From positions 806,001 through 870,000 of the forward strand of contig NZ_CP010552.1 in NCBI RefSeq assembly GCF_001293165.1: a DNA stretch of 64,000 bases, given 5' to 3'. The position numbers were made by a program, and so were the translations under genes. Shown piece after piece: positions 6,421 to 19,107 of this stretch (positions within the stretch are counted from its first letter, which is position 1; each line of letters begins with the position of its first letter). This DNA comes from Candidatus Thioglobus autotrophicus (GTDB taxonomy: Bacteria > Pseudomonadota > Gammaproteobacteria > PS1 > Pseudothioglobaceae). The notes beneath the pieces are model-generated. The model searched no databases and was not told the origin of the DNA. It saw only the letters and a program-made list of their open reading frames with translations.

Positions 6421-7677
6421 ATGAAAGTTTTAGTTGCAGGTAGTGGAATTATAGGCATTACTTCGGCCTATTATTTGGCAAAATCTGGCCACGAAGTGAC
6501 TGTCATCGAGCAAGAGTCAGAGCCGGCACTAGGAACAAGTTTTGCCAATGCGGGGCAGTTATCATACGGCATGTCATCGCCTTGGGCAGGGCCTGGAATT
6601 CCTATCAAGGCCATGAAATGGCTAGCGGCAAAGTATGCGCCTTTAATTATCAACCCAAAACTCACCCTATTAACGCTTAAGTTTTTATTTAGAATCTTAA
6701 AAAACTGCACTGCCAGTCGTTATGAGATTAATAAATCTCGTATGGTTCGAGTCTCAAAATGCTCTCAGCAGGCCATTGTTGAAATGGTTCAAGAACATGA
6801 TTTTGATTTTGAGCTAAGAAGCCATGGCTTGTTGCAAGTTTTTAGAACGCAAGCGCAGCTTGATGCCGCCAAAAAAGATATGGCAGTTTTGGATGCTTAT
6901 CAGGTTAAGTATGAGTTACTAGATGTAGAGGGCTGTATTAAGGCCGAACCCGCGCTTGTCCATGTCAAGGAGAAAATCAAGGGCGGGTTGCGCTACTTGG
7001 AAGATCAGAGTGCTAATTGCTTTTTGTTTGCCAACCATTTAACAAAAATTTGTAAGCAAATGGGGGTGAAGTTTGAGTTTAATGTGAGTATTCAGCAGAT
7101 TAACGCCAAGCACAAAAAAATTACCAGCATTCAAACAGATCAAGGCAATTATCAGGCTGATAAATATGTAATTGCTTTGGGCAGTCAATCAGCTGACATC
7201 TTGGCGCCACTCGGCATACATCTGCCAATCTATCCAGTTAAGGGCTACTCTATTACCTTGCCTATTAAAAACGATGCAGACGCGCCACAGGGTACACTAA
7301 TGGATGAAACCTACAAAGTAGCCATTACCAGGCTAGGCGACATTGTGCGTGTTGCCGGTATTGCTGAGCTAACAGGATACGACAAAACACTGTCAGATTC
7401 TGGCGACCGCATAACCCAGTTTGTACTCCATGACTTATTCCCCAAAGCGACAGATCAAGTGCCAGATGACCAACTTTGGGCAGGCTTGCGCCCTATGACG
7501 CCTGATGGAACACCCATTATTGGTAAAACACCTTATGATAATTTATTATTAAACACCGGACACGGAACGCTAGGCTGGACCATGAGCTTAGGTTCTGCAA
7601 AGGTGATTAATTCACTTGTATCTGAGCAGACACCCGAGATAGACATCGAAGGTCTTAGCATGTTTCGATACCAATAA
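6421..7677 (+). CDS. dadA: D-amino acid dehydrogenase, FAD-dependent (DadA-like)
   Basis: This is a membrane-associated FAD enzyme family that deaminates D-amino acids to 2-oxo acids and passes electrons to the quinone pool. The N-terminus has the dinucleotide-binding signature GSGIIGITSAYYLAKSGHEV followed by an acidic residue, and the family segment TSFANAGQLSYG near residue 40. The C-terminus has GLRPMTPDGTPIIG and TGHGTLGWTMS, typical of DadA. Length 418 fits (E. coli DadA is 432). It is preceded by a GAGGG ribosome site and followed after 14 bases by rnhB. Substrate specificity inside the DAO family cannot be fixed from sequence alone. Confidence 0.88.
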   Translation: MKVLVAGSGIIGITSAYYLAKSGHEVTVIEQESEPALGTSFANAGQLSYGMSSPWAGPGIPIKAMKWLAAKYAPLIINPKLTLLTLKFLFRILKNCTASRYEINKSRMVRVSKCSQQAIVEMVQEHDFDFELRSHGLLQVFRTQAQLDAAKKDMAVLDAYQVKYELLDVEGCIKAEPALVHVKEKIKGGLRYLEDQSANCFLFANHLTKICKQMGVKFEFNVSIQQINAKHKKITSIQTDQGNYQADKYVIALGSQSADILAPLGIHLPIYPVKGYSITLPIKNDADAPQGTLMDETYKVAITRLGDIVRVAGIAELTGYDKTLSDSGDRITQFVLHDLFPKATDQVPDDQLWAGLRPMTPDGTPIIGKTPYDNLLLNTGHGTLGWTMSLGSAKVINSLVSEQTPEIDIEGLSMFRYQ

Positions 7678-7691
7678 ATTCCAAGAACTCT

Positions 7692-8249
7692 ATGATTATT
7701 ATTGGCGTTGATGAAGCAGGTCGTGGCCCATTAGTGGGCTCGGTGGTTGCGGGTGCCGTGGTACTGCCAAGCAAGTTTGAGCTGCCCGAACTAACCGATT
7801 CTAAAAAACTCAGTGAGAAAAAGCGAGAAACCTTATACGCCCTTATTACTCAGCAATGTCAATGGGCGGTGGGCGAGTCTAGTGTACAAGAGATTGATGA
7901 AATTAATATTTTGCAAGCTACAATGCTAGCGATGAAGCGCGCTGTAGAAAATCTCAATCTTAAATATGACCAAGTTTTAGTCGATGGCAATCGCTGCCCT
8001 GATGTGCAATATTGCACGGCAATCGTTAAAGGGGATTTAACAGAACCTGTTATTTCAGCAGCATCCATTATTGCTAAAGTGACTCGTGATAGGCAAATGT
8101 TGAAACTAGATAAGCAATATCCTCAGTATGGATTTGCTCAGCATAAGGGTTACGGTACTAAAATACACCTAGCGGCGCTCAAACAGCATGGCGCTATTCA
8201 AGGCCAGCACCGAGCTTCGTTCGCTCCAATTAAACGTTTAATCGGTTAA
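7692..8249 (+). CDS. rnhB: Ribonuclease HII
   Basis: RNase HII cleaves RNA in RNA-DNA hybrids and starts removal of single ribonucleotides from DNA. The 185-residue protein opens with the metal-binding motif IIGVDEAGRGPL (Asp7, Glu8) and contains TDSKKLSEKKR and VDGNRCPD, then the conserved ISAASIIAKVTRDR block and the C-terminal Y-G-x-x-x-HKGYGT motif. Length is normal. The stop codon overlaps by four bases the stop of the convergent lipoprotein gene, so there is no space for a separate terminator between them. Confidence 0.96.
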   Translation: MIIIGVDEAGRGPLVGSVVAGAVVLPSKFELPELTDSKKLSEKKRETLYALITQQCQWAVGESSVQEIDEINILQATMLAMKRAVENLNLKYDQVLVDGNRCPDVQYCTAIVKGDLTEPVISAASIIAKVTRDRQMLKLDKQYPQYGFAQHKGYGTKIHLAALKQHGAIQGQHRASFAPIKRLIG

Positions 8250-8992
8250 AAAGGCGTGCCTTCCATGGCACTACCACCATTCAATTCTTGAATTTGGCGT
8301 TTTAATTCTGCTTTTTTAGCATCAAGCTCTGCTTGTTTTTTCAATAGCTCGGCTTTTTTCTGCGCCGCTATTTCTCTTTGTCGATCGCGTTCAATTTCAG
8401 CGGCCGGGCGAGTCTTCAAGTAATCAAAACGCTTAACAATTTTTTTGGCCCACTTGGCTTTAGAGGCAACTTTAACTGCTTTTTGCGCCTCACGCTGTGT
8501 CACCGCACCCATTAGGTAAACCGTTTGGCTCTCAGTCATCACCCTGACAAGGGTTGGATGAAACACCTCTTGGTCATGAAACAAGGTCTCCACTTGTGCA
8601 GTGATAGCCGCATCTTTAGAGCGACTTAACAGCCCGCTGTTTGGACCAACGGTTATTTCGTTAAATACTTGTTTGATTTTTGGATCTTGAATTTGGGCTT
8701 GTTCAATTGTGTACTTAAGTACTGCATTACTAGGTACTTCACCGGTAATTAGCACGCTTTTGTTATACACCATAAAGTTAAGATGTACATCCTCTAAGGC
8801 GCTATCTTGGTTTGGCCAAGCGAGCATTCTAAACATAATGGTTCTATCATCTAGTACTTCACCTGCACTGCGTCTGTCATTAGTGGTGGTGATAATGGTG
8901 CTCATCGTTGAAGCACCTTGAATAACAGGCAAACACCCTGTTAATAACAATGAGTTGGCAATTAATACAGCAGAAATCAGTAATTTTTTCAT
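8246..8992 (-). CDS. dolP: BON-domain outer-membrane lipoprotein, DolP/YraP-like
   Basis: The 248-residue product has a lipoprotein signal peptide with lipobox LTGC (Cys20), then two BON (OsmY/nodulation) domains at about 55-125 and 130-195. In the second, the segment VYLMGAVTQREAQKA is typical. DolP (YraP) is an outer-membrane lipoprotein that supports envelope integrity and BAM function in E. coli. The C-terminal 45 residues form an added charged, Lys/Glu/Ala/Gln-rich coiled-coil-like tail that usual DolP (about 190 aa) lacks. It is 6 bases downstream of yraN, as expected for the conserved yraL(rsmI)-yraN-yraP neighbourhood. Confidence 0.85.
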   Translation of the reverse strand: MKKLLISAVLIANSLLLTGCLPVIQGASTMSTIITTTNDRRSAGEVLDDRTIMFRMLAWPNQDSALEDVHLNFMVYNKSVLITGEVPSNAVLKYTIEQAQIQDPKIKQVFNEITVGPNSGLLSRSKDAAITAQVETLFHDQEVFHPTLVRVMTESQTVYLMGAVTQREAQKAVKVASKAKWAKKIVKRFDYLKTRPAAEIERDRQREIAAQKKAELLKKQAELDAKKAELKRQIQELNGGSAMEGTPF

Positions 8993-8998
8993 AAATAA

Positions 8999-9370
8999 TT
9001 AGCCTTCAAAGGCGTCTTTAATCCAGTTTATTTTAGGATATTTTAAATCAGATTCTAGTCCCACAACATCAAACCGACAGATATATTCATCAAACTCATC
9101 GTGTTGTTGCAAGTAGCGTTGTGCACTGCGAATAATTTTTGCCTGCTTGCTAGAGGTAACGGTGTCAGTGGCCGATCCAAAGCGTGTATTTTTTCGATAA
9201 CGAACTTCAACAAAAACCAATACTTGCTCGGCTTTATCAAGCATAATAATATCTATTTCACCAACCTTGGTAAGATAATTTTGTTCAATTAACGTTAGAC
9301 CCTGCTGAATAAGATATTTCAGCGCAATGTCTTCTGCTTGATTGCCAACTTGTCTTTTAATACTAAACAT
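8999..9370 (-). CDS. yraN: YraN family protein (UPF0102), predicted nuclease fold
   Basis: The 123-residue protein matches the UPF0102/YraN family, which has a PD-(D/E)XK-like restriction endonuclease fold. Visible motifs are the N-terminal GNQAEDIALKYL, the GEIDIIMLD segment (about 36-44) and VFVEVRYRKNTRFG, which supplies the putative catalytic acidic and basic residues. The biological role is not well settled. It is transcribed away from rsmI. Its ATG and that of rsmI overlap within one CATG at 9368-9371, so each 5' untranslated region and promoter must lie inside the other gene. It is followed by the DolP-like gene after 6 bases. Confidence 0.9.
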   Translation of the reverse strand: MFSIKRQVGNQAEDIALKYLIQQGLTLIEQNYLTKVGEIDIIMLDKAEQVLVFVEVRYRKNTRFGSATDTVTSSKQAKIIRSAQRYLQQHDEFDEYICRFDVVGLESDLKYPKINWIKDAFEG

Positions 9371-10199
9371 GATCGGAACACTTTATATTGTTGCCACCCC
9401 TATTGGAAATCTAGATGATATCACTTTTAGGGCAATTGAAACTCTAAAAAATGCAGACGTTATCTTGGCGGAAGACACGCGCCATTCCAGGCGCTTGCTT
9501 AATCATTACGACATCAAAACCGATTTGCGCGCTTTTCACGAGCACAATGAAACGCAAAAAGCTCAGTTGGTAATCAGCGAGCTGCTCGAAGGTAAAAACA
9601 TGGCACTTATTAGCGATGCGGGTACGCCACTGATTAGTGACCCTGGTTATGTACTGGTACGCGAAGCCAAAAAAGCCGGGGTGATGGCCTCACCCATTCC
9701 GGGCGCGAGTGCGATGATCAGCGCCATGAGTGTGGCTGGTATTGCCAGTGACCAATTTGGATTTTTTGGTTTTTTACCCAACAAACAAACCGCCAGAATT
9801 AAAGCTATCCAGGCTATTGCACACATTGATCAAACCGCTATTTTTTATGAATCACCCAAGCGCATTTTAGCGTGTGCGCGCGACCTACAAAGCGTTTTGG
9901 GCGACGATCGAATTGTGTGTTTTGCCAAAGAGCTGACCAAATCTTTTGAAACCATTAAAACTGATACCCTGCCTAATTTGATTAACTACCTAGAAGCAGA
10001 CCAAGCGCATCAAAAAGGCGAATTCGTGGTTTTAATTTCCAGTATCGATAAAAACAACAAAGTTATCGGCGAGGAGCAATTAGACAAAATACTGCCTATT
10101 TTGCTGATGGAAATGGGCGCTTCAAAAGCCGCCAAGCTGGCCGCTAAAATAACGGGTATTGACAAAAAACATTGCTACCAAAGGGCAATTGACCTATAA
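9369..10199 (+). CDS. rsmI: 16S rRNA (cytidine(1402)-2'-O)-methyltransferase RsmI
   Basis: RsmI methylates the ribose of C1402 in the 16S rRNA decoding centre using SAM. The 276-residue product has the family opening GTLYIVATPIGNLDDIT, the AEDTRHSRRLL block, the SDAGTPLISDPGY loop and PGASAMISAMSVAG, all typical of the tetrapyrrole-methylase fold. The reading frame is open further upstream to a TTG at 9342, but the ATG at 9369 is chosen because it puts the conserved TLYIVATPIGN at the normal N-terminal position. That start overlaps the yraN start. No clear Shine-Dalgarno sequence precedes it. Confidence 0.95.
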   Translation: MIGTLYIVATPIGNLDDITFRAIETLKNADVILAEDTRHSRRLLNHYDIKTDLRAFHEHNETQKAQLVISELLEGKNMALISDAGTPLISDPGYVLVREAKKAGVMASPIPGASAMISAMSVAGIASDQFGFFGFLPNKQTARIKAIQAIAHIDQTAIFYESPKRILACARDLQSVLGDDRIVCFAKELTKSFETIKTDTLPNLINYLEADQAHQKGEFVVLISSIDKNNKVIGEEQLDKILPILLMEMGASKAAKLAAKITGIDKKHCYQRAIDL

Positions 10200-10208
10200 G
10201 GATTTATT

Positions 10209-10520
10209 ATGGATTTCTACACCCGACATATTTTCTTTTGTAATAATCAACGCAAAGACGGTAAAAGCTGTTGCTCTCAGTTGGGCGCTAAGCAGATGTA
10301 TCGTTATGCCAAAGATAAGTGTCGAGAAGAGGGAAAAATGGGTGAAGGCAAAATTGGCGTTAGCGAATCACGCTGTTTAGGCAGGTGTGAGCATGGGCCG
10401 GTGGCAGTTGTGTATCCAGATAATGTTTGGTACCAATATATTGACGAAGAGGATATTGATGAAATCATTGATGAGCACTTAATCGCCGGAAAACCCGTTA
10501 AACGCTTACAGATTGATTAA
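10209..10520 (+). CDS. Small thioredoxin-like [2Fe-2S] ferredoxin
   Basis: The 103-residue soluble protein resembles thioredoxin-fold [2Fe-2S] ferredoxins. It has an N-terminal RHIFFCNNQR-type strand, a Cys pair at SCC (about residues 21-22), and the motif SRCLGRCEHGPV near 54-65, giving the Cys-x3-Cys spacing of this fold, followed by VVYPDNVWY. Such proteins carry electrons; the partner is not identified here. It follows rsmI by 9 bases on the same strand and its 3' end overlaps the convergent coaE gene by 15 bases. Assignment rests on motif spacing. Confidence 0.7.
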   Translation: MDFYTRHIFFCNNQRKDGKSCCSQLGAKQMYRYAKDKCREEGKMGEGKIGVSESRCLGRCEHGPVAVVYPDNVWYQYIDEEDIDEIIDEHLIAGKPVKRLQID

Positions 10521-11111
10521 TTTTTGATATAAATTTTGCACTTTTTGCTTTAATTCGAAAATTTCCGAATTATTTTCAATCACATCAATGGGTAGCTGAT
10601 CTGCTAGTTTTAGCCTGTTTTCTGCACTTGTTTGTGTATAAATAAGCGATTTTGCAGAGTTTTTATCAATATTTTCACGTTTTATTAGTCTTTTTAGCTG
10701 ATTTTGCTCATTACAATCAATAATAATGGCTCTATCAAACAAATAAGCTAAATTTTTCTCAACTAGTAGCGGTATTTCGACAATAATAAGCGATTTTTTG
10801 CTATTTTTTATTGCCATTTGCATTTTTTCCAATATTTTTGGATGCAAAATGTCCTCAATTAGCTGTTGATTGGCTTTATTATCTAGCAAAATTTCTCGTA
10901 AAACCTTGCGATCAAGGCTTTTATCCGCCTCAAGAATGCTATCACCAAAGTGATCAACGAGTTCGCTTAATCCCGCACTCCCAGGCACAACTACTTGCCG
11001 AGAGAGCTCATCAAGGCTGATTACCTCAGTGCCAAGATTTTCAAATAATTGGGCAACGTTAGATTTTCCGCAGGCGATTCCGCCTGTTAGTGCAATTTTA
11101 ATTGGTGACAT
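10506..11111 (-). CDS. coaE: Dephospho-CoA kinase
   Basis: CoaE phosphorylates dephospho-CoA, the last step of coenzyme A synthesis. The 201-residue protein starts with MSPIKIALTGGIACGKS, containing the P-loop GGIACGKS at 10-17. It has the CoaE segments VISLDELSRQVV and HPKILEKM and the lid region VEIPLLVEKN. The frame stays open upstream to 11222, but that extension runs through the tRNA-Met gene and precedes the universally N-terminal P-loop, so the ATG at 11111 is chosen. The gene is unusually AT-rich toward its 3' end. It is divergent from the tRNA. Confidence 0.94.
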   Translation of the reverse strand: MSPIKIALTGGIACGKSNVAQLFENLGTEVISLDELSRQVVVPGSAGLSELVDHFGDSILEADKSLDRKVLREILLDNKANQQLIEDILHPKILEKMQMAIKNSKKSLIIVEIPLLVEKNLAYLFDRAIIIDCNEQNQLKRLIKRENIDKNSAKSLIYTQTSAENRLKLADQLPIDVIENNSEIFELKQKVQNLYQKLINL

Positions 11112-11189
11112 AATAGAGTTGATTTTATCAATATATTGGCCTCGGACTATTGACATTTGCATCAAATGTCTTGATAATACACGCTCTTT

Positions 11190-11266
11190 GGTTATGTAGC
11201 TCAGCTGGTTAGAGCACAGCATTCATAATGCTGGGGTCGGTGGTTCAAGTCCACCTATAACCACCA
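11190..11266 (+). tRNA. tRNA-Met (CAT), elongator type
   Basis: The 77-base gene folds as a complete cloverleaf: a 7-bp acceptor stem GGTTATG/TATAACC with a G-T pair at the base, a D-arm GCTCAGCTGGTTAGAGC, an anticodon arm CAGCA-TTCATAA-TGCTG with anticodon CAT, a T-arm GGTGG-TTCAAGT-CCACC, and an encoded 3' ACCA. A paired 1-72 position and the lack of three G-C pairs in the anticodon stem argue for elongator rather than initiator Met. Its 3' half is repeated at 17671-17755, so it is also the attachment site of the island that follows. Confidence 0.95.
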
Positions 11267-11274
11267 TATACAAT

Positions 11275-11310
11275 AAGGGGTTTAGTGTTTTTTCACTAAG
11301 CCCCTTTTTA
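11275..11310 (+). terminator. Rho-independent terminator of tRNA-Met
   Basis: A 13-bp stem, AAGGGGTTTAGTG with CACTAAGCCCCTT (one G-T pair), encloses a T-rich loop and is followed by a TTTTT run. It begins 9 bases after the tRNA and ends its transcription before the island. Confidence 0.85.
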
Positions 11311-11331
11311 TTGGGCTACCACTGGGCTACC
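11311..11331 (+). repeat. Island-end repeat, left (two TGGGCTACC copies)
   Basis: Two tandem copies of TGGGCTACC lie just inside the island, after the tRNA terminator. A matching pair in inverted orientation (GGTAGCC...GGTAGCCCA) lies at 17606-17625 inside the right end. With the inverted tRNA copy they extend the symmetry of the island ends. Their placement suggests arm-type recombinase sites, an inference. Confidence 0.5.
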
Positions 11332-11376
11332 TTTTGGCAGATTTAACCTTGCTTTATTAATATTGATAAAACCTTG

Positions 11377-11517
11377 TTATGACGCTATTTGTTCACCAAA
11401 TGGTGCTTTCTTTCCGCCTCCATCAATAAAGTACTTTAATGGTTCTTTGTCAATTGGCAAGTGTGAGTATAGGTACGTGTTCTTTTCCAAACCTTGAACT
11501 TGTCCGCTTCTACGGGT
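11377..11517 (-). pseudogene. Short decayed reading frame downstream of the terminase-like gene
   Basis: On the minus strand a 46-codon stretch without stops follows the terminase-like gene in the same frame, after two stop codons, and ends with TAA at 11377. It has no start codon. Its translation contains NTYLYSHLPIDKEP and YFIDGGGKKAPFG, which reads like real protein and faintly recalls the start of GIY-YIG-type phage proteins. I interpret it as a remnant of a lost phage gene, with low confidence. Confidence 0.3.
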
Positions 11518-11523
11518 TTATCT

Positions 11524-11931
11524 TTACTCAAAGTCTACATCAGGGTCTATGAACTCCACTTTAAAATTCATGTCCATACCGCCTGTAATATCTAACTCTT
11601 GCTTATCACCCCACCCACGCTTGCCACCTTTCCGTTTTAGGATTGTCTCGCAAGCCTTGAATTTGATACTCTCATTATCTGACACTACAAGCTCCATCAT
11701 TCCTCTCTCAGCTAAGTCTAAATTACTCTCTTTAATGTCGTCTACTTGGTCAGGGTCTTTCATTGCCCTCTCATGTACTGCTTGACGTGAATAAGTATCA
11801 CCTGCAACTTTAGCAATAGCGTCTGCTGTGGCTTGAAAATTAGCATTATTAATTCTTAGTAATTCCCAGAAATCTTCGTTAGTAATTTTCATATATATTG
11901 CGTATTTGTCAGGTTTGTCAGGTTTTACCAT
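11524..11931 (-). CDS. Phage terminase small subunit-like protein
   Basis: The 135-residue protein has the layout of a class of small terminase or DNA-packaging proteins: an N-terminal ITNEDFWELLRINNANF helix pair acting as a helix-turn-helix (about 16-45), the segment YSRQAVHERA, a central helix pair with ERGMMELVVSDNESIKFKACETILK, and a Gly-Trp-Gly/Asp-rich end leading to a short beta tail. Such proteins recognise phage DNA for packaging. No large terminase, portal or capsid gene is present, so it is an orphan. Met14 (11892) is an alternative start that fits the family better. No Shine-Dalgarno sequence is obvious for either. Confidence 0.55.
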   Translation of the reverse strand: MVKPDKPDKYAIYMKITNEDFWELLRINNANFQATADAIAKVAGDTYSRQAVHERAMKDPDQVDDIKESNLDLAERGMMELVVSDNESIKFKACETILKRKGGKRGWGDKQELDITGGMDMNFKVEFIDPDVDFE

Positions 11932-12096
11932 TAATTTATAAGCATCATTTCAAAGAATAATATTACCACTTACTTAAAAAGATCAGCTAACAGCAGTAAA
12001 TACTAATCATTAAATTACAGCATCAGAAATTAATAGGTAGTTATGAGATGTAAATGGATATAATTAAAAATGAACTACTTAATATAAGGTGTTTTT

Positions 12097-13071
12097 ATGA
12101 AAAAAACTATATTTTCGCTAATGATTTTATTTTTTAGTCTTGGCATCCAAGCAGCACAACTAAATATAAAAGTTAGTCATAAAGTAATTGATGGCAAAGT
12201 ATTTATTAATGGTTTTACAAATCTGCCAGAAGGCACAAAGGTTGGAGTTGAGGTTTCATCAGCTGCTGATGACTATTCTGCACAGAGCTATAAATTATAT
12301 GTGAATAGTAGCGGCTTATTTCAAAGTGAAGGTTTTACTGATTTAGGAAATCCTCTTGTCGGTAGTTACAACGTTGAGGTAATAAGTCGTATTAATAAAT
12401 TTTGGCAAAATGAAGAAATATTAACTAAATTAGCTAGATTTGAAGGCAATGGAGTACAGGGTGACAAAATATCACTCAAGTATTCAATGTTCATTGATGC
12501 GGCTCAAGGTGTAAATTACACAGTTATTGAGAAGACCAACCTAGAGCAAGTGAAAGGCAGTATTAGCATAAGACTTGAAAAGAAAGTCTCAAAGGATTCT
12601 TTGCGTAAGTTAGCATTGAAATTACGAGAAATTCAGCCAAGAAAATATGACCGATTATTTATTACATATTACCTGCCAAACATGAAGCCAGGCTTTGGCG
12701 CATGGGCGAGTACCCATTTTAATCCAGATTTGAAAGTGGTTATATTGGGCTTAACAATTGAAGAAGAGAGTGTGTTAATAAATGAGTCTAAGACTCCCCT
12801 TGGGGAAATAATTGGTGAATGGATTGATGAGTCTCCTTATGCCGGTTCAAAGTACGCCTTAATCAAGAAAAATAAAAAAATCATCATGGTGCGAAAATTT
12901 GCAGATGGTAGTCATTCAGAAATAGAAATGATTCAAAAAAACCAGTCAGGCAGGATTCGGTTTGAGAGAAAGAAGAAAATTCATGATGATTATTTTCTAA
13001 TTGAAAGAGATGGGAGTTTAGGTTCATATGATGACCTAGGACTCATCAGTAAAATGCGCATTATTAAATAA
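12097..13071 (+). CDS. Secreted protein of unknown function, first gene of island envelope operon
   Basis: I do not recognise this 324-residue protein. It has a clear Sec signal peptide (MKKTIFSLMILFF..., cleavage likely after residue 19 at IQA-A), so the mature protein should be periplasmic or exported. The N-terminal part (20-100) looks like a beta-sandwich (LNIKVSHKVIDGKVFINGFTN). The middle contains RKYDRLFITYYLPNMKPGFG and a long acidic/hydrophobic strand pattern. The C-terminal third is very basic. It is the first of five closely spaced genes coding for exported or membrane proteins. A TATAAT lies at 12059-12064 but no good -35 was found. Confidence 0.75.
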   Translation: MKKTIFSLMILFFSLGIQAAQLNIKVSHKVIDGKVFINGFTNLPEGTKVGVEVSSAADDYSAQSYKLYVNSSGLFQSEGFTDLGNPLVGSYNVEVISRINKFWQNEEILTKLARFEGNGVQGDKISLKYSMFIDAAQGVNYTVIEKTNLEQVKGSISIRLEKKVSKDSLRKLALKLREIQPRKYDRLFITYYLPNMKPGFGAWASTHFNPDLKVVILGLTIEEESVLINESKTPLGEIIGEWIDESPYAGSKYALIKKNKKIIMVRKFADGSHSEIEMIQKNQSGRIRFERKKKIHDDYFLIERDGSLGSYDDLGLISKMRIIK

Positions 13072-13095
13072 TAAATTACATAGGGCTCTTATCTA

Positions 13096-13512
13096 ATGAG
13101 TAAAAAAGAAAACAATGGTTGGTTTAAAAAAGATATAGGAATATTTCCGTTAATAATTGTATTAGCAATAGTTATGTCTTGGTTTCCTGATGATGATGAC
13201 AATAAGGATGCTACACAAGTTAAGGCAGCTACAGTTCAAAAGGTTGATGTGACTGACCAACAAAAAAACAAGTTTGAAAGTTGGGCGCTTAATAATACCG
13301 AAGTGACAAGCCTCACCTATCCTGAAGATAGTGATTGGCAATTATGGATTACCCTATCAGACAACAAACACTCTTACACCACAAAAGAGGATGTTAAAAC
13401 TATCGCCTCAACAACAGCAAGGTACTACAAATTACAAACAGGCTATAAGGGTCTTGTGATTGTAACTGTTTGGCGTAATGACTCTGTTTACGCTAAAGGA
13501 AGGGACTACTGA
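13096..13512 (+). CDS. Single-pass membrane protein of unknown function
   Basis: The 138-residue protein has a short basic cytoplasmic start, one transmembrane helix (about 15-28, IGIFPLIIVLAIVMSW), an acidic patch PDDDDNKD, and a soluble domain of about 85 residues that should face the periplasm. The domain pattern (ALNNTEVTSLTYPEDSDWQLW then a strand with YKLQTGYKGLVIVTVWRNDSVYAKG) suggests a small alpha/beta fold. No family is recognised. It starts 24 bases after the secreted protein gene and stops 2 bases before the lipoprotein gene, so coupled expression is likely. Confidence 0.7.
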   Translation: MSKKENNGWFKKDIGIFPLIIVLAIVMSWFPDDDDNKDATQVKAATVQKVDVTDQQKNKFESWALNNTEVTSLTYPEDSDWQLWITLSDNKHSYTTKEDVKTIASTTARYYKLQTGYKGLVIVTVWRNDSVYAKGRDY

Positions 13513-13514
13513 TT

Positions 13515-14009
13515 ATGAAAAGTTTAATTTTGATTCTTACTATGTTATTTATTACTTCGTGTGCTTCAATTGAGTCAAGACCCCTTACTTGGCATCATTA
13601 TGGCATTCAGGTGGACAGTGAATCTTATGATGACAAATATATTAGAGGCGTCTCTTATCTTCCATCAGTAATGAATCAAAAGATTTATGCCTGGGCTTCT
13701 TTAAGTGAATATGGTCATTACTTTAAACTGCAAGTTCATAATAAGTCCAACAAGCCTATCAGTTCAAATTATTTTTTAGATCAGTTTGAGTTATTTACCA
13801 AAGACGGTGCAAAGTATATTCTTGAGCCAACAGGTGGGATAGCACGATATCCTGAAAAAAAATATATCAATCCACAGGATACTGTTTGGTTTTCTGTAAA
13901 CACCCCAAAAGGGCTGAAACACGAAGATGACATAGCCAAAATTGTTATAAAACTGGGTTATGATGCAAGAATAGTGCTTAAGCCAAAGCCTTCAAAAGGC
14001 GTTCAATAA
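13515..14009 (+). CDS. Predicted lipoprotein of unknown function
   Basis: The 164-residue protein has a lipoprotein signal peptide ending in the lipobox ITSC (Cys16), followed by Ala-Ser, which does not carry an Asp+2 retention signal, so outer-membrane sorting is plausible. The mature part is rich in aromatic residues and predicted beta strands (YFKLQVHNKSNKPISSNYFLD is a typical immunoglobulin-like strand pair). No domain is recognised. It is third in a tight five-gene run, 2 bases from each neighbour. Confidence 0.7.
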   Translation: MKSLILILTMLFITSCASIESRPLTWHHYGIQVDSESYDDKYIRGVSYLPSVMNQKIYAWASLSEYGHYFKLQVHNKSNKPISSNYFLDQFELFTKDGAKYILEPTGGIARYPEKKYINPQDTVWFSVNTPKGLKHEDDIAKIVIKLGYDARIVLKPKPSKGVQ

Positions 14010-14011
14010 TT

Positions 14012-14359
14012 ATGAAATTTCAAAATAAAGACAATGGCTATATTGAAGAAACGTCACTTACATTTTTATGGGTGCTGTTTTTTGGAGTGTTTTATTTTTT
14101 ATATAAAAAGATTTGGAATCACGCACTGATTAGTCTTGGTTTGGCAATTATTACAGCGGGAATATCGTGGTTAATATATCCATTTTTTGGTAAAGAAATT
14201 GTGCGTAAACACTTTTTAAGAAACGGCTGGGTTGAAGTGTCAGATACTGGAGAGCAGATAGATAGTAATATTGAAGTTAAGAATAAGACTGGTGATTATG
14301 TAATTATTGCAATAATAATTATCTTGGCATTGGCTATTGCTGGTCAAATGATGGGGTAA
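14012..14359 (+). CDS. Small multi-pass membrane protein, DUF2628-like
   Basis: The 115-residue protein has two adjacent hydrophobic helices in its first half (about 15-30, TFLWVLFFGVFYFLYKK, and 36-56, HALISLGLAIITAGISWLIY), a polar loop, and a C-terminal helix (about 92-113). The motif Phe-Trp...Tyr-Lys-Lys-x-Trp-x-x-Ala resembles DUF2628-type small membrane proteins, but the match is by eye. It begins 2 bases after the lipoprotein gene. It probably forms the inner-membrane part of whatever the operon encodes. Confidence 0.65.
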   Translation: MKFQNKDNGYIEETSLTFLWVLFFGVFYFLYKKIWNHALISLGLAIITAGISWLIYPFFGKEIVRKHFLRNGWVEVSDTGEQIDSNIEVKNKTGDYVIIAIIIILALAIAGQMMG

Positions 14360-14385
14360 ATTCTTTACAAAAGGAGTGATTAACA

Positions 14386-14706
14386 ATGAAACATATAAAA
14401 ATAATGCTAATGATGGGATTTATGGCGATATCTGTAACAACCAATGCGGCCACTAATACCGAGGTTGTTGGAATGTTAGAGGGATATGTAGAAACGTGCA
14501 ATAAGAAAAAAACCTCTATTGGGCATATGTTCATTGGCAAGGCTATTACTAACTTTGGCAAGGGAGGCATTCAGCAAAGGGCAGATAGATTAAGAGCTTC
14601 TGACGAATATCAGAAGGGTAAAAACCTTGTAAGTCTGGACTTTTGTATAACAATAGGATTCTTGTTAGAAGATATGGGGTTATCAAAAGCAACCACGGAT
14701 AAATAG
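14386..14706 (+). CDS. Small periplasmic protein with two cysteines, unknown function
   Basis: The 106-residue protein has a Sec signal peptide (MKHIKIMLMMGFMAISV..., likely cleaved after NAA near residue 22). The mature domain of about 84 residues is helical, with Cys38 and Cys87 placed to make one disulfide. General size and the Cys pair recall small periplasmic immunity or lysozyme-inhibitor-like proteins, but no specific family signature is visible and I do not assign one. A good AAAGGAGTG ribosome site precedes it. It closes the five-gene run, 26 bases after the membrane gene. Confidence 0.65.
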   Translation: MKHIKIMLMMGFMAISVTTNAATNTEVVGMLEGYVETCNKKKTSIGHMFIGKAITNFGKGGIQQRADRLRASDEYQKGKNLVSLDFCITIGFLLEDMGLSKATTDK

Positions 14707-14783: not shown

Positions 14784-14970
14784 TGTAGTGGTCCGTTAAT
14801 CTTGGACACATTTCAAGCCACTTTTTCCAATTCAGCCATCTTCTGAGCGGGTGTCATATACCCAATCGCTGAATGAATCCTTTTGTAGTTATAAAAGTAA
14901 ATATAACTTTCAACATTTTGCACTACCTCGTAATGATTTGCAAAGCTTTGATGGTTTAATCGCTCAGCTT
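14784..14970 (-). pseudogene. IS3-family transposase (OrfB) 3' fragment with its terminal repeat
   Basis: On the minus strand the last 52 residues of an IS3-type OrfB integrase are intact: KAERLNHQSF, then FYNYKRIHSAIGYMTPAQKM, the typical end after the catalytic Glu. The coding part ends at 14813. The element's terminal repeat TGTAGTGGTCCGTTAATCTT... lies at 14784-14809. The fragment breaks off exactly at 14970/14971, where a second IS end begins, so the upstream catalytic DDE region is missing. It cannot encode an active transposase. Confidence 0.85.
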
Positions 14971-15034
14971 TGTAGTGGTCTGACAAACTTGGATACAAAG
15001 ATAGCCTTATAATACAAACTATAAGGAGGTCAAT
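14971..15034 (+). mobile_element. Left-end remnant of a second, related IS element
   Basis: The 26-bp end TGTAGTGGTCTGACAAACTT... (14971-14996) matches the 14784 repeat at 21 of 26 positions and points the same way. It is followed by AT-rich sequence with TATAAT (15008-15013) and a strong AAGGAGGT (15023-15030), the expected leader of OrfA. The open frame then stops abruptly. I read this as the left terminus of an IS inserted into the first one, with the rest deleted. The far breakpoint is approximate. Confidence 0.6.
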
Positions 15035-15524
15035 AAATTACCTCTTCCCTTGCCTCCTTCATATTATGTTTATCAAGAAAGTAGTAAGGCTTTGGCACAA
15101 CCGAACGGTGTCCATTCTTATACCACTTAGCTTTGATTTGTTGGTTCAAAGCAAAAGAGTTTCTTATCTTATCTCCATCAATAAAGAAAGCACAATGATA
15201 GTGCTGAATCTTTGACCTTTCTACTTCTCTCACCCAAACATAACCAACGTACTTGGTCTTGTACTTTCGTTTTATTCTTTGAACTTGTGCTTTTATAAAG
15301 GTTGTTATCTGCTTATTGTCATCACAATATTGTCGAAGGTGTAAATCAAACCTTAATACAAAGACACGCTTATATCTCGCTATCATTTTGTCCAACTCAA
15401 CAACAAACTTTTCAATAATAAGTGGATAAACTCCTAGCTTTTCGGTTGAGTTTATTTTTAATTCCTCACCGTTAATGTTTAAGAAAGAACCATAATGCTC
15501 CTTCTTCCTGTTTCTCTTAGTCAT
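15030..15524 (-). pseudogene. Inovirus Gp2 / YagK-YfjJ-like protein, 3' end replaced by IS remnant
   Basis: The 164-residue protein resembles the inovirus Gp2 / YfjJ C-terminal family found in prophages and phage-inducible islands, thought to act in replication. Visible features are the N-terminal ELKINSTEKLGVYP, a central basic region (VFVLRFDLHLRQYC), the motif VREVERSKIQHYHCAFFIDGD with a His-x-His of HUH-like nucleases, and the C-terminal PKPYYFLDKH. The stop codon falls at the edge of the IS remnant, so the natural C-terminus is probably lost. It follows the two HTH genes on the same strand. Confidence 0.6.
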
Positions 15525-15638: not shown

Positions 15639-15968
15639 TTACAAAGCGTGTGCTTTTTCCTCTAGTAGGTAGTCAGCTAATTCACAATCTTCATTGTTGA
15701 ATCTGTACTCGTTGACTTTAACTTTTTTGCCATAGCGAGTATCGACTTCTATCATCTTCCTTGGAATTATGAAACCACAGTTGCGACAGAGTTCGCTAAT
15801 GTGTGTATTCAGACAAGTAGTACCTATCATCATAAAGGCTTCTCTGCTTGTGAGAGAATTCCCATCACTCAAATACTCGACAATGTTATACTTTGCGTTA
15901 CCGGATTTTAGGTAGCCCTTCTCCAACTTGGTCGTTTCAGAGGGGTTTTTATTATCTACTCCATTCAT
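15639..15968 (-). CDS. Phage-type helix-turn-helix protein
   Basis: The 109-residue protein carries a winged-helix-like domain in its centre: NIVEYLSDGNSLTSREAFMMIG, then a turn and ISELCRNCGFIIPRKMIE, then a wing with KKVKVNEYRF. This pattern is common in small phage and island DNA-binding proteins. Its start is coupled to the upstream AlpA-like gene through a TAATG overlap (one shared base at 15968). It is probably a regulator or accessory replication factor of the island; the exact target is unknown. Confidence 0.6.
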   Translation of the reverse strand: MNGVDNKNPSETTKLEKGYLKSGNAKYNIVEYLSDGNSLTSREAFMMIGTTCLNTHISELCRNCGFIIPRKMIEVDTRYGKKVKVNEYRFNNEDCELADYLLEEKAHAL

Positions 15969-16195
15969 TACACTTCCTCCTTCACACGGATTGAATTAAC
16001 CTTAACCATACCGTTATGGTCGTGGGTATTCTCTTCAATGTAGGTTTCAATGTCGGAACTTTTATAACGAACGGCATTACCAATCTTGATAAATGGAAGT
16101 CCAGTTCCAAGTATTCTTTGATTAGATAATGTCTTAGGTGCGAACCCTAAAATATCTGCGAGTTGCTTTGTTGTAAACAGTCTATTAATTGTCAT
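15968..16195 (-). CDS. AlpA/excisionase-type MerR-like HTH protein
   Basis: The 75-residue protein is a small DNA-binding factor: RLFTTKQLADILGFAPKTLSNQRILGTGLPFIKIGNAVRYKSSDIETYI contains the helix-turn-helix, the Gly-Leu-Pro-Phe turn and the Val-Arg-Tyr motif of the AlpA / excisionase (Xis) family. Such proteins control excision or gene expression of integrated elements. It leads the minus-strand run AlpA-like, HTH, Gp2-like, the order seen in satellite-type elements. The upstream noncoding region 16196-16578 probably holds its promoter. Confidence 0.75.
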   Translation of the reverse strand: MTINRLFTTKQLADILGFAPKTLSNQRILGTGLPFIKIGNAVRYKSSDIETYIEENTHDHNGMVKVNSIRVKEEV

Positions 16196-16653: not shown

Positions 16654-17364
16654 TTAAGTTTTTGTAATATAAAACCTACCAGTATAGTGTTTACTGACAC
16701 TTGTATTTTTTTCATTACAAAACTCATCTATCGCTATTTTAGCGCCTGGCCACTTTTTGGCATCCTTGCCAAAATCATATTCATCAAGCAAGATTATTGC
16801 ATTATCTTGAAGTAATGGCCAAAAGAATTCTAAAATCGCCTTTGTAGGCTCGTAAATATCTACATCTAGATTTAAAAGGGAAACAGGTGATTCATCATAA
16901 TATTCAAATGAATCAGGTATCCAGCCTTTGATAAGAGAGATGTCATTATCATCTAAATTTTGAGCACCTAGATCAATAAGATTTTGCTTTACCCAATCAA
17001 CTGTAAATTTTGCATATTTTTTATTATAGCGATCATATGAACTAGAAAAAATACTGCCATCCTTTGAATTTGGTGAAGAGAATCCCTCAAATGAGTCAAA
17101 TCCCCATATCTTTCTCGAGCAATTAAACTCCTTTTGTAGATTTTTAAAGAATGCTAAAGTTCCTCCTCCAGCAACTCCACATTCAACAATATTTCCAGAA
17201 ATAGAAATTGTTTTCATAAACATTTCGTAGTGAAAAAGACGTCTAATTTGACTAGGTGATAGTCCTGACCAAAATTTCTCAACATTATCACTATCTTTTA
17301 ATGATATTTTATATCCTAATTTGTCAAAAAAAATATATATAGCTTTCTTTACGAATTTTTTCAT
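16654..17364 (-). CDS. TylF/MycF-type SAM-dependent O-methyltransferase
   Basis: The 236-residue protein matches the macrocin-O-methyltransferase (TylF) family, which methylates hydroxyls on sugars or polyketide/saccharide chains with SAM and a metal ion. Seen are the SAM motif IVECGVAGGGTLAFF, the IWGFDSFEGFS block, and the metal/substrate region NLDVDIYEPTKAILEFFWPLL followed by DEYDFGKDAKKWPGAKIAIDEF. No glycosyltransferase or polyketide gene is nearby. It is cargo near the right end of the island, AT-rich and unlike neighbouring core genes. Substrate unknown; modification of surface polysaccharide is a reasonable guess. Confidence 0.75.
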   Translation of the reverse strand: MKKFVKKAIYIFFDKLGYKISLKDSDNVEKFWSGLSPSQIRRLFHYEMFMKTISISGNIVECGVAGGGTLAFFKNLQKEFNCSRKIWGFDSFEGFSSPNSKDGSIFSSSYDRYNKKYAKFTVDWVKQNLIDLGAQNLDDNDISLIKGWIPDSFEYYDESPVSLLNLDVDIYEPTKAILEFFWPLLQDNAIILLDEYDFGKDAKKWPGAKIAIDEFCNEKNTSVSKHYTGRFYITKT

Positions 17365-17670
17365 ATCTTATCTAATAAAACAATTTAAATATATTTTAAC
17401 TCATTTAGAAATTAAAGTTTTGTTAAAAATGTGAGGGAGAGTATATAAATACTACTGTTATATCGATTGGGCTCCCCCACTAGGTATCAAAGTCTAAATA
17501 AATATGCGAGTGATGGTGGTTATTTATCGTTATAAATCAATGAGTTAACTAGTAAATAATTGGTAGATATATATTAAATATATAATTATCACAGTTAATC
17601 CTACTGGTAGCCATATGGTAGCCCAAGTATTATTTTGATTTAAGTGAAATGGCTTAAAGCCTTTAAATAG
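17365..17670. other. Noncoding right-end segment of the island
   Basis: No gene is seen. The segment is AT-rich and has an imperfect inverted repeat GTGAGGGA / TCCCCCAC (about 17430-17482). The right island-end repeat lies at 17606-17625. No integrase gene or remnant is recognisable here, although this is where one would be expected beside an attachment site. Confidence 0.4.
17606..17625 (-). repeat. Island-end repeat, right (inverted GGTAGCC pair)
   Basis: GGTAGCCATATGGTAGCCCA matches the reverse complement of the left-end repeat at 11312-11331 in 17 of 20 positions. It lies 46 bases inside the inverted tRNA copy, comparable to the 45 bases between the tRNA and the left repeat. Confidence 0.5.
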
Positions 17671-17721
17671 ATGGTGGTTATAGGTGGACTTGAACCACCG
17701 ACCCCGGCATTATGAATGCTG
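17671..17721 (-). repeat. Inverted copy of the tRNA-Met 3' half (attachment-like site)
   Basis: On the minus strand these 51 bases match 11217-11267 (anticodon arm, T-arm, acceptor 3' strand, ACCA) with one difference, T to C, which breaks a base pair in the anticodon stem. No tRNA 5' half is attached, so it is not a functional tRNA. The orientation is opposite to that expected for a simple integrase-made direct duplication. Confidence 0.9.
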
Positions 17722-17755
17722 AGGTCGGTGGCTCAAGCTTGCCTATATCCACCAT
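17715..17755 (+). repeat. Degenerate direct copy of the tRNA-Met 3' end, back to back with the inverted copy
   Basis: These 41 bases match the tRNA-Met 3' end (11227-11267) in about 34 positions, in direct orientation. Together with the inverted copy they make an imperfect palindrome of roughly 39-bp arms centred on the anticodon-loop sequence. The stop codon and last codons of nhaA lie inside this copy. Confidence 0.65.
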
Positions 17756-19107
17756 CTGTTTGAGCGTCTCTTTTCAGAGGTGCTTTTTGCCACATATCTA
17801 AGCCATAAAAATCCAGATAATCCAGCAAACAAGGAAGCTAATAAAATTCCAACTTTGGCTTGAAAAATGAGTTCAGGAGTTTTTAGAAATGCCAGGTCTG
17901 CTATAAATATAGACATGGTGAAGCCAATACCGCCTAAAAGTGCGATGCCAAAAATTTGACTCATGCTACTTTGATCTGGAAGTTTGGCGATTTTTAATTT
18001 TATAGCGAGCCAAGAAACGCCAAATATTCCAACTACTTTTCCTAAAATAAGGCCTAAGATAATTCCCATTGATATGGGTTCAATAATAACAGCGCCAATC
18101 GAACTGAAATCTATCGCAATACCTGCGTTGGCTAGTGCAAATAAAGGGATAACTACTAAAGCGACTGGAAGGTGTAAGTCGTGTTCAAGCCTGGCAGCTG
18201 GAGATCTGACAGCATTAATTTTATCCTGCAGATTGATGAGAATGGCCTTTTGATTTTCATGCAGCATGTGGTTTTCACATGGGGGATACTTGTCATATTT
18301 ATCGAGTAATTCTTTAGTATCTTTAGAGAGACTTGAGGAAGTGTGTTTGGGTTTTGAAGGGACTGCCATGGCAGCAATAACGCCTGCAATAGTCGCATGA
18401 ACGCCCGACTCAAACACAAAGAACCACATGAGAGTGCCCATGACAAAATAAGGCAAAATCATATGAATACCAAAACGATTAAAGATGACTAAAATTAAAA
18501 AAGCAACACCAGATAAGGCGAGCGGCACAACGTGAATTTGATCGGTATAAAATACTGCAATCACTAAAACCGCGCCTAGGTCATCAACAATGGCCAGTGC
18601 AACTAAAAATGTTACCAATGCTGTAGAGACTCTTTTGCCTAATAGGACTAATACACTAATTGCAAAGGCGATGTCTGTCGCCATAGGCACCCCCCAACCG
18701 CCGGAGCCAATCTCGCCTACATTGAGGCTGAGATATATTAATGCAGGAAAAACCATGCCGCCAATAGCGGCCATAATAGGCAGGGCTGCTACTTTTATAT
18801 TTGACAATTCTCCTACTAAGATTTCTCTTTTTATCTCTAGTCCAATCATAAAAAAGAATAAAGTCATCAGACCGTCGTTGATCCAATGATGAATGCTGTG
18901 TGATAGCTTCCATGAACCAATATTAAGATCTATTTTTGTATGGAATAGATGTTCGTAGTTTTCTGTTAATGGCGTATTGGCTAAAATTAATGCTAATACC
19001 GTCATAAACATTAAGATTTTTCCAGTTGTGGTTTGGGCATGAATAAAATGCTCAAACGGTGTTGAGATTTTCTCAAAGGCCTTTTCCCATGGGGCGTATA
19101 ACTTCAT
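17743..19107 (-). CDS. nhaA: Na+/H+ antiporter NhaA
   Basis: NhaA exchanges sodium for protons across the inner membrane, important for salt and pH homeostasis in marine cells. The 454-residue protein is strongly hydrophobic with about 12 predicted helices. It has the ion-binding double Asp in VALAIVDDLGAVLVIAVFY, the N-terminal HHWINDGLMTLFFFMIGLEIKRE segment in two parts, and HATIAGVIAAMAVP. A hydrophilic insertion of about 60 residues (about 250-310) is common in one NhaA subset. The last codons (Asn-Arg-Trp-Trp-Ile) are read from the degenerate tRNA-Met copy, so island insertion appears to have changed the C-terminus. Confidence 0.95.
   Translation of the reverse strand: MKLYAPWEKAFEKISTPFEHFIHAQTTTGKILMFMTVLALILANTPLTENYEHLFHTKIDLNIGSWKLSHSIHHWINDGLMTLFFFMIGLEIKREILVGELSNIKVAALPIMAAIGGMVFPALIYLSLNVGEIGSGGWGVPMATDIAFAISVLVLLGKRVSTALVTFLVALAIVDDLGAVLVIAVFYTDQIHVVPLALSGVAFLILVIFNRFGIHMILPYFVMGTLMWFFVFESGVHATIAGVIAAMAVPSKPKHTSSSLSKDTKELLDKYDKYPPCENHMLHENQKAILINLQDKINAVRSPAARLEHDLHLPVALVVIPLFALANAGIAIDFSSIGAVIIEPISMGIILGLILGKVVGIFGVSWLAIKLKIAKLPDQSSMSQIFGIALLGGIGFTMSIFIADLAFLKTPELIFQAKVGILLASLFAGLSGFLWLRYVAKSTSEKRRSNRWWI

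Follow-up and report, generated by a model that had tools for sequence, protein, structure and literature searches.

Five envelope-directed genes as the probable cargo of a decayed phage satellite at a tRNA-Met gene of Candidatus Thioglobus autotrophicus

The int-AlpA-inovirus-Gp2 elements of Pseudomonas include I55, a satellite whose transduction by a jumbo phage has been demonstrated (PMC12595487). Satellites of the I55 type are inserted at tRNA or tmRNA genes, encode AlpA, an inovirus-Gp2-like protein and an HTH protein, and carry variable cargo without structural genes (PMC12595487). PICIs have an AlpA-type regulator, a replication module, terS and accessory genes, also without structural or lytic genes (PMC6092414). 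The PICMIs of Vibrionaceae are very small marine satellites with AlpA that need int and primase, are usually inserted at fis, and have neither terS nor capsid remodelling genes (PMC10803314).

Here, we analyzed a 64,000-nt stretch of the genome of Candidatus Thioglobus autotrophicus (the window; bases 806001-870000 of the complete 1,512,449-bp genome). A reading of the ORFs indicates that this genome has sulfur-oxidation genes. In the window, an island separates tRNA-Met from nhaA; its right att region lies about 6.4 kb from tRNA-Met. From the tRNA, the island consists of terS (minus strand), five ORFs (plus strand), an IS3 remnant (minus strand), genes for Rep, an HTH_39 protein and an AlpA-like protein (all minus strand) and a TylF-type methyltransferase gene (minus strand), as follows.

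11190..11266, plus strand: tRNA-Met (CAT; ARAGORN, Rfam), the left attachment site; its 3' half is repeated, inverted, at the right end
11524..11931, minus strand: terS, small terminase subunit, phage captured; 63% amino acid identity to the TerS of viral contigs L061 and L062
12097-13071, plus strand: ORF1, 324 aa, signal peptide, secreted
13096-13512, plus strand: ORF2, 138 aa, one N-terminal transmembrane (TM) anchor and a soluble domain of ~100 aa; orphan
13515-14009, plus strand: ORF3, 164 aa, lipoprotein, lipobox with Cys16; orphan
14012-14359, plus strand: ORF4, 115 aa, small multi-pass membrane protein with three TM stretches; DUF2628-like
14386-14706, plus strand: ORF5, 106 aa, signal peptide, secreted, two Cys (38, 87); orphan
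14813..14998, minus strand: C-terminal remnant of an IS3-type transposase (Pfam rve_2/rve_3), with 85% identity to an IS from a different member of the family
15030..15524, minus strand: rep, YagK/YfjJ (inovirus Gp2-type; PF11726, E 1.2e-11), C-terminal ~30 aa missing
15639..15968, minus strand: HTH_39 winged-helix protein, just under the Pfam cut-off; 65% identical homologue at the same locus in genome G420
15968..16195, minus strand: AlpA-like HTH_17 excisionase/regulator (PF12728, E 3.5e-9; PHROG 66, excisionase and transcriptional regulator)
17653..17761, no strand: right att region, in which an inverted copy of the tRNA-Met 3' half adjoins a diverged direct one; palindrome

The element has in common with I55-type satellites an AlpA-like protein and an inovirus-Gp2-like protein at a tRNA site, an HTH protein, variable cargo and no structural genes. 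It differs in being only ~6 kb long, in having TerS and in lacking, in the window copy, the tyrosine integrase that adjoins the insertion gene in I55-type satellites and is present in the sister element L071. Its cargo consists of envelope proteins, whereas the I55 type carries recognised defence systems, restriction-modification among them. The AlpA-type regulator, a replication module, terS and accessory genes, with no structural or lytic genes, are shared with PICIs, but Rep is of the YagK/YfjJ type (PF11726) instead of pri-rep and comes with no primase, there is no integrase, and the element is under half the typical PICI size of about 15 kb. Like PICMIs it is a very small marine satellite with AlpA and no capsid remodelling genes; of int, alpA and prim, however, it has the AlpA-like gene only, and it lies at tRNA-Met and carries terS. 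The element is thus nearest to the I55 type, with a PICI-like terS added, and lacks the integrase expected of all three types, so we regard it as a decayed example of an already known kind of satellite. The part worth following is its envelope-biased cargo.

The original prediction placed the five ORFs on a mobile island with no structural phage genes. The island status is borne out by two genomes of the same genus in which the site is unoccupied, nhaA lying ~80 bp (G005) or ~540 bp (G001) from the 3' end of tRNA-Met, and no structural phage gene was found in the island. What that prediction missed was the phage-satellite identity, as indicated by a phage TerS, an AlpA-like protein and Rep. 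The element is lodged between att repeats, the copies of which are in an unusual inverted orientation. At the right end, the inverted tRNA 3' half is 96% identical and, with the diverged direct copy, forms a palindrome that has the anticodon loop at its centre. This palindromic junction (17653-17761) suggests an inversion, or inverted integration, at a near-palindromic anticodon stem-loop or att core. Arm-like sites (GGGCTACC) recur in mutually facing orientation at 11311-11331 and 17606-17626. In G001 (L052, 3633-5172), ~1.5 kb of extra sequence lies between the 5' side of tRNA-Met and most of coaE and may represent a second insertion there.

The putative packaging-diverting gene was recognised through phage homologues, since the window TerS itself matches a PHROG terminase family weakly. 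In the IMG/VR contigs L061 and L062, the related TerS gene lies directly upstream of terL (PHROG E 7.6e-67), followed by further neighbours encoding a portal (4.4e-121) and a head-morphogenesis-type protein. An 87-nt block over the 3' end of terS has 96.6% DNA identity to another phage contig, L064, whose TerS has an N-terminal part unlike that of the window. When L064 122-511 is compared with window 11524-11931, near-identity is restricted to this 3' end, giving the picture of a mosaic terS whose N-terminal part has been exchanged among phages and satellite. The terL of these phages found no match in the organism's own genome; a search of 83 family genomes gave a single weak match and identified no resident helper. 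The terS gene therefore stands alone. A search of IMG/VR via Rep or HTH39 recovered no satellite DNA. With an AlpA-like protein, a YagK/YfjJ Rep and a lone phage TerS, the island is, as judged by homology, a phage satellite backbone.

No integrase ORF was found between 11267 and 17653 in the ORF listing or with Pfam or PHROG, and in alignment Rep is without the last ~30 residues of its relatives. Having neither an integrase nor a full-length Rep, which is cut short beside the IS3 remnant, the window copy is probably stranded and may be dead; the cargo frames are intact. The TylF-type methyltransferase gene (16654-17364, minus strand) occupies the spot where the relatives lead one to expect the integrase.

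Integrase genes are present in the related elements L071, L072, L089 and L090, and the insertion sites of the sisters include tRNA-Ser, tRNA-Arg and tmRNA genes. The same genome holds L071 (G000:C1:1416000-1434000, 6625-13320), a second, intact-looking element of 6.6 kb at tRNA-Ser, delimited by directly repeated copies of the tRNA end. Next to the tRNA it has integrase, AlpA and Rep genes and, on the opposite strand, genes for a lipoprotein, a four-TM Sel1 protein and a secreted pentapeptide-repeat protein and a small terminal TerS-like gene. The product of the latter has no relatives in viral contigs and matches PHROG 15261, of unknown function, so its identity as TerS is read from size, position and the motif GGRQKGTPNK only. 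L072, at tRNA-Arg, carries an integrase, Rep and three secreted proteins, including Surface-adhesin protein E; the cargo of L090 and L091 includes a secreted Adhesin-E-like protein and a lipoprotein, and that of L089 a cytoplasmic NERD protein. A ~110-aa protein, 52 to 62% identical among L072 (8495-8863), L089 (10184-10501) and L090 (5812-6171), is encoded next to Rep, where the window and L088 have HTH_39.

L088 (G420:C14, 163-7665) comes from another genus and occupies the same coaE/tRNA-Met site. Its Rep is 80% and its HTH39 protein 65% identical to those of the window, the latter being placed between Rep and AlpA. The cargo is wholly different, mainly membrane or secreted proteins together with four non-envelope genes; two of the cargo proteins have a common N-terminal motif. 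None of the related satellites contains ORF1 to ORF5. Counted by hand with a crude envelope rule, exported or membrane proteins made up all 11 cargo genes of the first three elements, against 19 of the 54 chromosomal genes of the window that served as background (Fisher P = 6e-5); over seven elements the count was 19 of 24 (P = 3e-4), and 14 of 19 when the window element was left out (P = 0.004), P values that are indicative only because cargo genes were designated post hoc. Related satellites in this bacterial family thus appear, from their sequences, to carry differing cargo that again consists mainly of exported or membrane proteins.

The five consecutive plus-strand ORFs of the window element (12097-14706, with gaps of 24, 2, 2 and 26 nt) lie exactly where they were first predicted. 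Shine-Dalgarno-like purine runs precede all five starts. First-order Markov shuffles of the segment (n = 300) gave a mean of 0.19 ORFs of at least 100 aa on both strands, with a maximum of 2, whereas the real segment has five on a single strand. Promoter-like sites were no more common in a scan than in shuffles. Hydropathy, the one basis of our topology calls, agrees with the proposed envelope direction of every product (secreted, single TM, lipoprotein, multi-TM and secreted with two Cys). We conclude that the five genes are probably the cargo operon of a decayed ~6.4-kb phage satellite at tRNA-Met and that they probably act at the envelope.

The claim that the proteins belong to no confident family stands for ORF1, ORF2, ORF3 and ORF5 and has to be amended for ORF4, the only one of the five with a Pfam match above the cut-off (PF10947, DUF2628; E 2.6e-5). 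That match scores 25 bits against a gathering cut-off of 23 over just one 30-residue stretch, and distant homologues of ORF4 occur on a few plasmids. ORF2, ORF3 and ORF5 have no detectable relatives in any collection searched (genomes, plasmids, phages and viral contigs). Two candidate matches to ORF3 were dismissed, one in G173 as an apparently unrelated lipoprotein with mainly N-terminal similarity and one in G250 for its three internal stops, and the single-sequence structure model of ORF3 was too poor for use (mean pLDDT of 50). PADLOC found no substantial defence-system match among the five ORFs; a partial PDC-S20 stretch fell on ORF3 (E 7e-4; 54 residues of a 450-position model).

The C-terminal portion of ORF1 (approximately residues 138 to 324) is a domain of some 185 residues that recurs in lipoproteins on a Polaromonas plasmid and a Stutzerimonas plasmid, with a further homologue in an alphaproteobacterial MAG. 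In P2-like prophages (L011 to L014), the domain is part of a TM- or lipid-anchored envelope protein encoded beside a repressor-like gene, a usual site of accessory genes serving the lysogen. Unlike in the window, it is there a single gene in a full prophage, with another type of N-terminal anchor and without ORF2 to ORF5. If the five genes formed a conserved module, they would be expected to co-occur elsewhere. Homologues of the ORF1 domain occur without the other four ORFs, the set is absent from the other genomes searched, and no searched genome, plasmid, phage or viral contig pairs any two of the genes, so a conserved five-gene module is unsupported.

How such cargo might serve its carrier can be outlined from the satellite setting. 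Upon helper infection, the ancestral satellite would have replicated through Rep, and its TerS would have joined the helper TerL, diverting packaging to satellite DNA. In this scheme, the helper TerL would be contacted by the C-terminal end of TerS and the packaging site recognised by the N-terminal part; the comparison with L064, in which the former is nearly unchanged and the latter differs, is what such a division would lead one to expect. Between such episodes, the satellite would gain if its host survived, and cargo products located in the inner membrane, periplasm and lipoprotein layer could benefit both. They might do so by preventing competing phages from adsorbing or from delivering their DNA. 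The earlier suggestion of envelope-based defence or exclusion is plausible in this setting. Phage exclusion at the envelope is our tentative first choice for the job of the cargo, though we would put it clearly below an even chance; it is favoured by analogy with the P2-like prophages, where the ORF1 domain sits as an accessory beside the repressor.

The five genes could instead be envelope cargo of unrelated genes that do not function together, acquired separately at a cargo hotspot and some of them maybe idle now. This reading is consistent with the lack of co-occurrence of any two genes elsewhere, with the variation of cargo among related satellites and the solitary occurrence of the ORF1 domain, and with the decay of the element. 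Against it, all five frames are intact and tightly spaced on one strand while the adjoining backbone is broken, and we think it slightly less likely than exclusion. Still less likely is cargo that changes adhesion, permeability or stress tolerance of the host, as in lysogenic conversion, and not phage entry. Surface-adhesin protein E and the secreted Sel1-repeat proteins of the sister satellites point that way, as these families are often tied to surface interaction, but ORF1 to ORF5 belong to none of them.

An ordinary genomic island without phage mobilisation, its TerS left over by chance from a former prophage, would agree with the absence of an integrase and, nearby, of terL and structural genes; it is very unlikely given that AlpA, Rep and TerS all sit at one tRNA site and that the same genome holds a second element of the same layout with an integrase. 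Peptidoglycan-cutting enzymes of incoming phages are blocked by T4 Sp, and a lysozyme-inhibitor-like periplasmic ORF1 might act likewise. Its C-terminal barrel, modelled with moderate confidence from a five-row alignment (pLDDT of 70 to 84), resembles PliC 3oe3 (probability 0.98; TM 0.62 on target; rmsd 3.8), but with a Foldseek E of 0.15, no Pfam MliC match and an empty profile comparison with E. coli MliC (hhalign probability 0.1), membership in MliC/PliC was rejected as a weak fold lead with negative sequence tests, and the idea is highly improbable.

Phage exclusion at the envelope, our tentative first choice, can be taken further. Small satellites of marine sulfur-oxidising gammaproteobacteria may specialise in envelope cargo as a rapidly exchanged surface arsenal against phages, with the five genes forming one new type of multi-protein exclusion device; we offer this as a long shot. 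The satellite-borne defence genes described so far are mostly cytoplasmic. A satellite family with mainly envelope cargo would hint at cell-surface exclusion as a trade among satellites, their hosts and rival phages. The setting would be an abundant, hard-to-culture group of ocean bacteria, for which the cargo yields a short list of orphan proteins for testing.
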